A DNA stretch of 64,000 nt from Thiolapillus brandeum (GTDB lineage: Bacteria; Pseudomonadota; Gammaproteobacteria; Chromatiales; Chromatiaceae): the NCBI RefSeq assembly GCF_000828615.1, contig NZ_AP012273.1, forward strand, positions 124,001 to 188,000, given 5' to 3'. This document shows, piece after piece, positions 23,639 to 42,509 of the stretch. The translations under genes and the position numbers were made by a program. Below the pieces are notes generated by a model that saw only the letters and a program-made list of their open reading frames with translations, made no database searches and had not been told where the DNA came from. Positions within the stretch are counted from its first letter, which is position 1, and every line of letters starts with the position of its first letter.

Positions 23639-23654
23639 CGAATGAATCAGGATT

Positions 23655-23855
23655 CCCGCCCCTCTGTCCTGGTACCTGAGAGTTTGGGCGCAATCCGCGC
23701 CTGCCCCGTCGGTGGGCGGTAAATCCGCCGCTCTCCAGAGTCAACCCGTCGCACGGTTGGCGACATGCCCCGCAGTCCTTTTGCCTGAGCGATTCCGGGC
23801 GGAATTGCGCCTTCGGCGTCGTGTCCGGGATGTCGGCACGATCTCTCCCGCGGCA
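23655..23855 (-). promoter_or_regulatory. Tandem glycine riboswitch upstream of gcvT
   Basis: Read on the - strand, two glycine-aptamer copies lie in series. Aptamer 1 spans about 23855-23766: it opens GGGAGAGATC, has the CCGAAGG core segment, and closes with CTCAGGCAAAAGGACTG. Aptamer 2 spans about 23742-23655: it opens TCTGGAGAGC, has CACCGACGGGGCAGGC, and closes with AACTCTCAGGTACCAGGACAGA. The short linker and order match the classic cooperative tandem architecture. It ends about 17 nt before the gcvT ATG, so control of translation start or of early termination is possible. Boundaries are by eye. Confidence 0.95.
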
Positions 23856-23859
23856 GCTG

Positions 23860-24270
23860 GGGTTGGAATGGGCCAATACTACAGATTCGGCCCTGAGTTG
23901 CCAAGTTGGCACGGTACCGCAAGTACTCAGGCGGACAAGGGAAGCGCCCCTTTTTCCTGTGGATCGACGGGTTTTGGGTGCGTTCATGAGCAAGAATCTC
24001 TCATCGATGTCACTCCGGTTTTTGTCACTGCCCGCCAATCGCGGTATGCTGTCTATCACATGGCATTCACAATGCAAAGAGTATTTCAGGATTGTATGGG
24101 GTTTCGGGTCTTCAAGTTTGCCATGATGATTGAAAGCCCCTCCATCAGGATATTGTTCGGAAAACGCTGTTTTTCAACAGCCTGCCATGGGACGTTCCTA
24201 CTAGAGATACGGATATCCTTGTCGAGGGAGAACATAGCCCATTACCCACAATAGCAATGATACCCTGGCT
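23860..24270. other. Intergenic region between riboswitch and diguanylate cyclase
   Basis: These 410 bases separate the divergent gcv operon and the GGDEF gene, so they should hold both promoters. I see no convincing sigma70 pair. One stretch, about 24170-24186 (TTTTTCAACAGCCTG), resembles an end of the inverted-repeat element at 31848-31950, so it may be a decayed or solo copy of that repeat. No gene was recognised. Confidence 0.4.
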
Positions 24271-30382: not shown

Positions 30383-30574
30383 AGGCATCCTCTGCGGTGT
30401 CCGTGAGCTGACTTTGTAATCCCTTGAGCCTTAGTACACTAGACAGGGGATCTGATTCTCACCGCGGTGTGCATGTCCGCCTTGAGCGGAAAGCCTGAAC
30501 GGTGACAGGGATTCCCACTTGAACCTGCCGGTTCAAGGTCTCAAGTCAGCAGCGGCACAGGCGGAGGATGCCTT
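30383..30574 (+). ncRNA. ssrS: 6S RNA
   Basis: The region between zapA and fau has the long closing stem of 6S RNA. AGGCATCCTCTGC at 30383 pairs with GCGGAGGATGCCTT at 30561-30574. A conserved interior follows: TGAGCTGACTTTGTAATCCC near 30406, and GGTCTCAAGTCAGCAGCGGCACAG near 30536. The RNA mimics an open promoter and sequesters sigma70 RNA polymerase. Length (about 190 nt) and position between zapA and fau match the gammaproteobacterial standard. Ends are approximate. Confidence 0.95.
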
Positions 30575-39461: not shown

Positions 39462-39890
39462 TCAGATGTCGAGGGGTTTGGGTTGTTGCGCGGTATGAGG
39501 ATGCTCGGAACCGGCATAGACCTTGAGCTTGCGGAACATGGCGCGGCCCAGGGGGTTGCGCGGAAGCATGCCTTTGACGGCGGTTTCCAGTACGCGCTCC
39601 GGTGCCTTCTCCAGCAGCTTGGCCAGATTGATGGATTTCAGGTTGCCGACGTAACCGGTGTGGTGGTAATACATCTTGTCCTGCATCTTGTTGCCCGTTA
39701 CATGCAGTTTTTCTGCATTGATGACGACCACGTAGTCACCTGTATCCACATGCGGCGTATAAATAGGCTTGTGCTTGCCTTTCAGGTGCCGGGCAATTTC
39801 ACTGGCCATACGGCCCAGGGTCTTGCCTTCTGCATCCACTACATACCAGTCACGGCGGACTTCCGCCGGTTTAGCGCTTACCGTTGTCAT
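39462..39890 (-). CDS. rplM: 50S ribosomal protein L13
   Basis: A 142-residue ribosomal protein. It begins [27 protein letters not shown] and contains [29 protein letters not shown] and [12 protein letters not shown]. Start ATG 39890 gives the standard length; the frame runs on upstream to 39932 without family sequence. L13 and S9 are coupled, and L13 represses its own operon in E. coli. Confidence 0.98.
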
Positions 39891-40132: not shown

Positions 40133-40161
40133 AAAAAAAAGCGCGGCAGGGGATGCCGCGC
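40133..40161 (-). terminator. Rho-independent terminator of the candidate small RNA
   Basis: An 8-bp GC-only stem (40154-40161 with 40141-40148 on the - strand), loop TCCCC and eight consecutive T at 40140-40133. This is the strongest intrinsic terminator in the window apart from those of major operons. It also stops any readthrough from the ferredoxin gene into rplM. Confidence 0.9.
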
Positions 40162-40237
40162 CAATCAATAACCACCAAAGGAGGATGGTGCATACTGATT
40201 TTCCATATAGGGGGAGGAGGAGAGGAAAATCAGTATG
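40133..40237 (-). ncRNA. Candidate small RNA with three C-rich, anti-Shine-Dalgarno-like loops
   Basis: Between rplM and the ferredoxin gene, the - strand shows a complete small transcription unit. From the predicted start near 40237, hairpin 1 has a perfect 14-bp stem (40224-40237 with 40191-40204) around a 19-nt loop, TCTCCTCCTCCCCCTATAT in DNA letters. Hairpin 2 (40173-40190) is a 5-bp stem with loop TCCTCCTT, complementary to AAGGAGGA. After an AT-rich linker, hairpin 3 (GCGCGGCA/TGCCGCGC, 40161-40141, loop TCCCC) is followed by eight T. All three loops are pyrimidine-rich, so the RNA could pair with ribosome binding sites. Hfq dependence is inferred from the linker and U-tail. Confidence 0.75.
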
Positions 40238-40241
40238 TAAC

Positions 40242-40263
40242 AATTCTCTAATATTAGAGAATT
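40242..40263. promoter_or_regulatory. 22-bp perfect palindrome over the small RNA promoter (putative operator)
   Basis: Half-sites AATTCTCTAAT (40242-40252) and ATTAGAGAATT (40253-40263) are exact inverted copies without a spacer. The site fills the -35/-10 spacer and covers the -10 hexamer, the position of a classic repressor operator. The regulator is not recognised; the sequence does not match Fur, LexA or FNR boxes. Confidence 0.7.
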
Positions 40264-40271
40264 CTTGTCAA
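40243..40271 (-). promoter_or_regulatory. Promoter of the candidate small RNA
   Basis: On the - strand a consensus -35 box TTGACA (40266-40271), a 17-nt spacer and the -10-like GAGAAT (40243-40248, four of six matches). The predicted start, about 6 nt further, falls exactly at the base of hairpin 1. The weak -10 suggests activation or de-repression through the overlapping palindrome. Confidence 0.7.
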
Positions 40272-40301: not shown

Positions 40302-40607
40302 TCAGATCGTCAGCCTTTCCACGATCTGCCCATGTTGCAGGTGGCGTGTTATGATTTCATCCAGGTCTTCTCTATCTATATAGGTGTACCAGGTTCCCTC
40401 GGGATAAATTACCAGTACCGGCCCTTGTTCACAGCGATCCAGGCAGCCGGCGTTGTTGATGCGAACCTGGCCCTTTCCATGGATACCCAGCTCCTTGCAG
40501 CGTTTTTTCAGATAGCTGCGGGCGTTTTCCGCTCCGAGGTCGGCGCAGCAGCTGCCCTCCTTGCGTTGGTTGGTGCAAACGAATACATGGTATTTGAAAT
40601 ACGGCAT
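40302..40607 (-). CDS. [2Fe-2S] thioredoxin-like ferredoxin
   Basis: A 101-residue protein of the (2Fe-2S) ferredoxin domain family, like the Azotobacter thioredoxin-like ferredoxins. Cluster cysteines are in HVFVCTNQR, the Cys pair GSCCADLG, and NNAGCLDRCEQGP, followed by VIYPEGTWYTYI. The start at ATG 40607 matches family N-termini (MPYFKYHVFVC); the frame continues to 40721 without family sequence. It is divergent from the GlcF-like gene, with 55 nt between starts. Confidence 0.9.
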   Translation of the reverse strand: MPYFKYHVFVCTNQRKEGSCCADLGAENARSYLKKRCKELGIHGKGQVRINNAGCLDRCEQGPVLVIYPEGTWYTYIDREDLDEIITRHLQHGQIVERLTI

Positions 40608-41849: not shown

Positions 41850-42509
41850 ATGAGCACTGAATTCGAGAATCAACGCCACCTGACCAGCGCGGATCGATTG
41901 GTTGTCAATCTGGATCAGGCGCTACGCACCCTGTTTGGCCGTCCCCTGGTGACCGAGCGTTCCAACCCCGCAGAAACCTGCCGGGAATCCGAGCTTCCGG
42001 AGAGCCAGCGGGATCATGTGGCCCGTCTCATGCGCATCAATCACACGGGTGAAGTCTGTGCTCAGGCTTTGTATCAGGGGCAGGCCCTGACCGCCCGCCG
42101 CGAGGAAGTGAGGCGCAGCATGGAGCGCTCTGCTGCCGAAGAGAATGATCACCTGGATTGGTGTGAGCAGCGGGTGGAAGAACTGGGGGGGCGCTTGAGT
42201 CTGCTGAATCCTCTTTGGTACGCGGGTTCCTTCACCCTGGGGGCTGCAGCAGGACTGGCAGGGGACAAATGGAGTCTTGGCTTTGTGGCGGAAACGGAGA
42301 AGCAGGTAGAGGGGCACCTGGATGAACATTTGGCTCAGGTTCCCGAGTCCGACTGTCGTACCCGCGCTATTCTGGAACAGATGAAGGAAGACGAGATACG
42401 TCATGGCCGGACGGCCAAGTCCCACGGCGGGGCGGAACTGCCTGCGCCGGTGAAAGCGGCCATGAAATTCATGTCCAAGGTCATGACTACATCGGTCTAT
42501 CGCTTGTAA
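41850..42509 (+). CDS. coq7: 3-demethoxyubiquinol 3-hydroxylase (Coq7)
   Basis: Di-iron, oxygen-dependent hydroxylase (219 residues) of the penultimate steps of ubiquinone synthesis, replacing UbiF. Iron ligands lie in MRINHTGEVCAQALYQGQ, EENDHLDWCEQRVEELG, and the C-terminal MKEDEIRHG, each giving Glu and ExxH. It also has the membrane-dipping LWYAGSFTLGAAAGLAGDKWSLG. It lies 47 nt after the GlcF-like gene. Confidence 0.95.
   Translation: MSTEFENQRHLTSADRLVVNLDQALRTLFGRPLVTERSNPAETCRESELPESQRDHVARLMRINHTGEVCAQALYQGQALTARREEVRRSMERSAAEENDHLDWCEQRVEELGGRLSLLNPLWYAGSFTLGAAAGLAGDKWSLGFVAETEKQVEGHLDEHLAQVPESDCRTRAILEQMKEDEIRHGRTAKSHGGAELPAPVKAAMKFMSKVMTTSVYRL

Follow-up and report, generated by a model that had tools for sequence, protein, structure and literature searches.

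A candidate anti-Shine-Dalgarno small RNA between a ferredoxin gene and rplM in Thiolapillus brandeum and its relationship to the RF02278 double-hairpin RNAs

The closest known systems to the small RNA analysed here are the double-hairpin RNAs ncS03, ncS05, ncS27 and ncS62 of Burkholderia cenocepacia (RF02278, the Rfam family "Betaproteobacteria toxic small RNA") and the S17 RNA of Bordetella pertussis. The CU-rich stretches of ncS27 and its siblings match ribosome binding sites, and overexpression of ncS27 slows growth (PMC5688073). S17 is 190 nt long, and RNase E shortens it to 67 nt by cutting close to where a CU-rich stretch between its hairpins begins; it carries a 27-nt block identical in the betaproteobacteria listed there, and acts by Hfq-dependent repression at ribosome binding sites (PMC11722255). 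Repression of BP2158 by base pairing at the leader was demonstrated with compensatory mutants, two other tested fusions were without response, and S17S is hardly toxic in E. coli (PMC11722255).

The window, the whole 64,000-nucleotide stretch of Thiolapillus brandeum DNA analysed, carries a small RNA unit on its minus strand between a ferredoxin gene and rplM. Our main reading, to which we assign a probability of roughly three in four, is that the unit encodes a stand-alone, trans-acting anti-Shine-Dalgarno RNA of an old proteobacterial lineage, which has been remodelled at the rplM locus of this genus. Among the literature matches listed, in which subscription journals are thinly covered, there was no such RNA for sulfur-oxidising gammaproteobacteria or for rplM.

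Structure of the small RNA gene

All the elements of the complete unit described in the original prediction (promoter, two hairpins, terminator and a 22-bp perfect palindrome over the promoter) were confirmed on the minus strand and are collected in Table 1, with a transcript 5' end expected at 40237/40238. One detail had to be amended: the terminator has the UCCCC loop and the U tail, but its stem, which had been called GC-only, ends in one A-U and one G-U pair.

Table 1. Features of the small RNA locus and its surroundings, in positions of the window.
Feature	Position	Strand	Basis or remark
Promoter, TTGACA-N17-GAGAAT	40243-40271	-	10/12 consensus matches
-35 element, TTGACA	40271-40266	-	17-nt gap to GAGAAT
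GAGAAT element	40248-40243	-	
Small RNA, ~105 nt, reads towards rplM	40133-40237	-	fold z -8.7; window type in 13/15 genus genomes
Hairpin 1, perfect 14-bp stem (40237-40224 / 40204-40191)	40191-40237	-	covariation, 13 congeners
Hairpin 1 loop, 19 nt, UCUCCUCCUCCCCCUAUAU	40223-40205	-	
Hairpin 2, CACCA / UGGUG stem	40173-40190	-	fold; conserved in 13/13 genus rplM-locus copies
Hairpin 2 loop, UCCUCCUU	40185-40178	-	
Intrinsic terminator, UCCCC loop and U tail	40133-40162	-	4 terminator pairs with double changes, 32 sequences
Terminator hairpin	40162-40140	-	
22-bp perfect palindrome over spacer and -10	40242-40263		lineage-specific; operator role not supported
rplM, next gene downstream (product taken from its translation to be ribosomal protein L13)	39462-39890	-	translation, synteny
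Second promoter-like site, before rplM	39973-39945		9/12 matches
Ferredoxin gene, next gene upstream (product presumed from its translation to be a small 2Fe-2S-type ferredoxin)	40302-40607	-	translation, synteny
coq7 (presumed from its translation), synteny marker	41850-42509	+	translation
6S RNA (side observation)	30386-30571	+	RF00013, 99.4 bits
Tandem glycine riboswitch, two aptamers (side observation)	23654-23860	-	RF00504

The minimum free energy of the RNA is -42.0 kcal/mol, compared with -18.5 +/- 2.7 kcal/mol for 200 shuffled sequences, none of which folded as low. The original prediction would have been refuted by a lack of compensatory changes in the stems of related genomes, and hairpin 1 has such changes: over thirteen congeners it is paired in 179/182 cells, with double changes at seven of the fourteen pairs. 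In whole-arm shuffles, which ignore the relatedness of the sequences, the pairing was matched in 0/5000 trials (mean 169, best 178) and the number of double changes in 25/5000; for the ten distinct stems (137/140 cells paired) the figures, with the same disregard of relatedness, were 2/5000 and 57/5000. RNAalifold on seven of the thirteen congeners gave double changes at 5/14 hairpin 1 pairs. The set of 32 sequences that yielded the double changes in the terminator stem showed no covariation in hairpin 2, which is too invariant in sequence to yield any; its CCATCCTCCTTTGGTGG is kept in all thirteen rplM-locus copies of the genus. Taken together, these comparisons support a real small RNA gene that stands by itself and whose anti-Shine-Dalgarno-like loops are conserved.

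Distribution and genomic neighbourhood

By BLASTN, matches to the small RNA were found in 162/194 genomes of the family. Nine of the ten sampled genus members, the window's genome included, matched over nearly the full length; in other genera the match mostly covered hairpin 2 and the terminator. A profile of the core (the 3' half), called R1 and built from 32 sequences, matches 15/15 genus genomes, G190 weakly (36.6 and 28.2 bits), 183/195 genomes of the order (52/56 genera, all of one family) and 114/274 genomes of the class (93/222 genera). The window type of RNA was found in 13/15 genus genomes, each time with an rplM match in the same stretch and in ten cases with a ferredoxin match as well. 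For genome G194 the queA-linked copy alone was found, and rplM was not found in it. G190 does have rplM, but upstream of it are other genes and no small RNA (L254, on contig G190:C141), which may be due to loss, to rearrangement or to a binning error.

Beyond the genus, rplM is present in the stretch at 33 of the best 40 R1 class matches, and ferredoxin, glcF or coq7 at 26. The exact 22-mer core CTCCTCCATCCTCCTTTGGTGG occurs in at least 118 named stretches; the taxa among the listed matches include Thiocapsa, Allochromatium, Halochromatium, Thioalkalivibrio, Thiothrix, Leucothrix, Thiomargarita, Arenicella, Sedimenticola and Thiodiazotropha, together with one Gallionellaceae record and a few unspecific titles, and no Bordetella or Burkholderia is among the listed exact matches. 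Among 120 listed copies of the 22-mer, 47 lie before rplM, 35 at queA/tgt, 27 elsewhere and four at fdx/coq7/glcF in stretches that do not reach rplM, and seven are too near a stretch end. The original prediction had no precedent for such an RNA at an rplM/ferredoxin junction. The counts of rplM-linked copies among both the best class loci and the listed 22-mer copies show that the RNA is no isolated case there: it belongs to a wide family, whose members lie at this junction more often than anywhere else.

The listed rplM-linked copies are without exception (47/47) in the orientation of rplM, with a median of 230 nt from core to rplM match. This would suit an element acting in cis on the rplM-rpsI operon, as a leader or attenuator, in which the terminator would control read-through, perhaps for autoregulation by L13. 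We hold this explanation to be very improbable, because the listed copies at queA/tgt run against the direction of these genes in the cases listed, because 27 more lie in other contexts, and because rplM has a separate promoter-like site before it (Table 1). The preferred reading remains that of a stand-alone RNA. Multiple copies were also seen close together: three tandem cores spanning some 240 bases of a Thiotrichaceae MAG (L187:5782-6024), and close pairs of R1 matches in G353:C83 and G385:C27.

Two forms of the RNA, their promoters and the palindrome

The window's genome has a second copy of the small RNA between queA and tgt, and the two loci differ in where the CU-rich site lies. Immediately before hairpin 2, a linear CCT is found in 0/13 rplM-locus copies of the genus versus 10/10 of its queA-tgt copies; it is present in 34/34 distinct copies from the other family genera and in 37/39 copies of the class. 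These copies were picked out by regular expression, after searches with queries that mostly carried the site, and L010 and L012 were missed, so that divergent copies are under-counted in these figures. Conversely, CCUCC in the hairpin-1 zone is present in all thirteen rplM-locus copies of the genus, in none of its ten queA-tgt copies, and in 1/34 copies of other family genera, 2/39 of the class and 1/82 of the 22-mer set, the last of which carry the linear CCT by construction. The rplM-locus copy of the genus has lost the single-stranded CUCCUCC between the hairpins, and its hairpin 1 is long and carries CUCC in the loop. As hairpins 1 and 2 abut in the window RNA, processing of the RNase E type seems unlikely for it.

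Three loci (L010, L012 and L021) carry both a hairpin-1 CCUCC loop and the linear CCUCC. They were considered as intermediates but are no clear case of this, since L010 and L021 have tgt as their neighbour and L012 has none of the tested genes beside it, which makes parallel gain just as plausible as an intermediate state. A run of at least five C in the hairpin-1 zone of 8/39 class copies (e.g. L095, L104, L118, L122) is a possible extra C-rich seed.

A broader history may be proposed, for which we see the odds as even. A single anti-Shine-Dalgarno small RNA, inherited near coq7, ferredoxin and rplM, would predate the split of beta- and gammaproteobacteria and would be an old core regulator, represented in Rfam by Burkholderia-like genomes alone. 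In the genus, the rplM copy would once have been processed and have had a single-stranded seed, and would now be a three-loop RNA that escapes processing; the ancestral form would survive in the queA-tgt copy, with both types in one genome. With a linear seed and a loop seed side by side, the effects of seed position and of RNase E processing on the choice of targets become testable.

The promoter layout is the same in 13/13 rplM-locus copies of the genus. For the class, the consensus TTGACA...ATATTAGAaaAT was derived from the 22/39 copies recognised by the promoter filter, which also recognised 27/34 copies of other family genera but only 1/10 of the queA-tgt copies of the genus. Upstream of the latter an inverted repeat was noticed by eye, TTGAGGATTATCAATG-like in 7/10 and TTTGACGATTGTCAATG-like in 3/10 (L049, L051-L053, L057-L060, L062, L063), which is a possible operator.

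The palindrome over the window's promoter had been thought to imply a dedicated regulator, and on this point the comparison gives no support. It is perfect (11/11) in two of the thirteen congeners, the window (L043) and L050, at least 9/11 in six copies in all, the other four having 9-10/11, and reaches 5-7/11 in the remaining seven. There is no second site within three mismatches in the window, and a scan of the genome for the inner 18 bp, with up to three mismatches allowed, gives this one place and no other, by which a palindrome regulon was rejected. A genuine operator, bound by a regulator that just one sub-clade of the genus has, would agree with the well-preserved copies and with the absence of any match in 100 shuffles of the window; we nevertheless judge it unlikely, given the poor symmetry of the other seven copies, the single genomic site and the position of the right half within the class-conserved -10 region of the promoter.

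Mode of action and comparison with described RNAs

In the trans-acting reading, a sigma70-type promoter would drive a stand-alone RNA of about 105 nt, the action of which is most likely in trans. Hairpin 1 has the CU-rich loop motif CUCCUCCUCCC, hairpin 2 has CCUCCUU and the terminator loop has CCCC, and these would pair with the purine-rich Shine-Dalgarno sequences of several mRNAs. Such pairing would block the start of translation, by analogy with the described RNAs. Hfq, which is encoded in the genome, would probably be bound to the U tail. This scheme builds on the layout, the fold, the covariation of hairpin 1 and terminator, the conservation, the synteny and the profile homology given here, and expression, Hfq binding, pairing and targets of the window RNA are what it would lead one to expect. 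The lineage would include the double-hairpin RNAs of betaproteobacteria (RF02278), with S17 as a probable further member.

Prediction of targets by simple Shine-Dalgarno complement gave no signal above control, AAAGGAGG-N3-11-ATG being found 13 times in the genome and the reversed control also 13 times, and the 11-nt complement of loop 1 occurs in the genome only at the small RNA gene itself. These two results, and the short and generic nature of the loop motif, would also suit an RNA sponge, the CU-rich loops of which act on free 30S subunits, on S1 or on an RNA-binding protein instead of particular mRNAs. This we regard as quite improbable, since base pairing is the means by which the related S17 represses BP2158, with compensatory mutants as evidence (PMC11722255), and we favour pairing with mRNAs.

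No Rfam family reaches its threshold at the window copy. The sub-threshold scores are 33.0 bits for ar14, 30.6 for ncS16, 27.9 for anti-hemB, 26.5 for ncS025 and 23.2 for RF02278 (gathering threshold 50), and suhB/mmgR (RF00519) gives 19.6 bits against a threshold of 41; by score the window copy is therefore not closest to RF02278, ar14 and ncS16 being higher. The best match, alpha-r14 / NfeR1 (RF02344, threshold 58.8 bits), resembles the window RNA in having three hairpins with anti-Shine-Dalgarno loops. In alpha-r14 / NfeR1 the motif CCUCCUCCC is found in all three hairpins, whereas in the window RNA it is complete in hairpin 1 only, with CCUCC in hairpin 2 and CCCC in the terminator; alpha-r14 / NfeR1 is moreover described as alphaproteobacterial and Hfq-independent (PMC10746234). 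The sX13 RNA of Xanthomonas likewise has three stems, whose C-rich loops repress mRNAs having G-rich motifs near the start; it is described as lying downstream of polA, in Xanthomonadaceae only, as Hfq-independent and as having CCCC rather than CUCC motifs (PMC3771888). The window copy lies before rplM and not at the polA site. The original prediction also named the CcsR/cuckoo RNAs and LhrC, which are characterised by repeated hairpins with CU-rich loops.

The link to RF02278 is seen best in other copies. It is the best Rfam match of the window's own queA-tgt paralogue (32.4 bits) and of a Thioalkalivibrio copy (34.1 bits), both below the threshold of 50. In the family 0/96 genomes are above the RF02278 cut-off and 52/96 have a weaker match; of 369 class genomes 103 have a match, two of them above the cut-off. 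R1 matches 30/30 of the best-scoring RF02278 loci at the same places, including the two members above the cut-off (33.4 and 25.1 bits), each of which has a coq7 match no more than 0.7 kb away. A whole-genome R1 search with stricter filters lacked the RF02278 place of G316, with one match there elsewhere. On the grounds of these reciprocal profile matches and of the coq7 neighbourhood, we take the gammaproteobacterial copies to be homologous with RF02278 and the window RNA to be a gammaproteobacterial branch of its line. We do not file the window copy as a member of RF02278, because no genome of the family exceeds the Rfam cut-off and the window copy is far below it. In the paralogue and in other genera a CU-rich single-stranded stretch is shared with RF02278, as are the CUCC-loop hairpin and the GC-rich terminator; several copies per genome and CU stretches matching ribosome binding sites are further common traits (PMC5688073). 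The RF02278 order of single-stranded CUCCUCC, CUCC-loop hairpin and terminator is absent from the rplM-locus copies of the genus, which are without the linear site, and the window copy differs in that its hairpin 1 is long and has CUCC in the loop.

Identity with S17 was dropped once the listed exact 22-mer matches proved to have gammaproteobacterial titles, and homology was tested by profiles and synteny instead; a guessed 27-mer for the S17 block had 0 exact matches in the searched genome contigs. S17, to which the window RNA is likened here by description and not by sequence, lies beside coq7 (PMC11722255) and shares this neighbourhood: coq7 is 1.6 kb from the window RNA, and in relatives including L106, L117 and L125 the distance is no more than 0.4 kb. 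The window hairpins abut, unlike those of S17, and the CU-rich linker is absent. S17 is described with a CU-rich Site 1, a Site 2 in the first loop and a Site 3 in the second (PMC11722255), and hairpin 2 of the window RNA is placed like Site 2 and its terminator loop like Site 3. The two RNAs are probably homologous, and a family known from few Burkholderia and Bordetella experiments would in this way be tied to a much wider set of RNAs in sulfur-oxidising gammaproteobacteria, which is without an Rfam family of its own and gains a common genomic neighbourhood.
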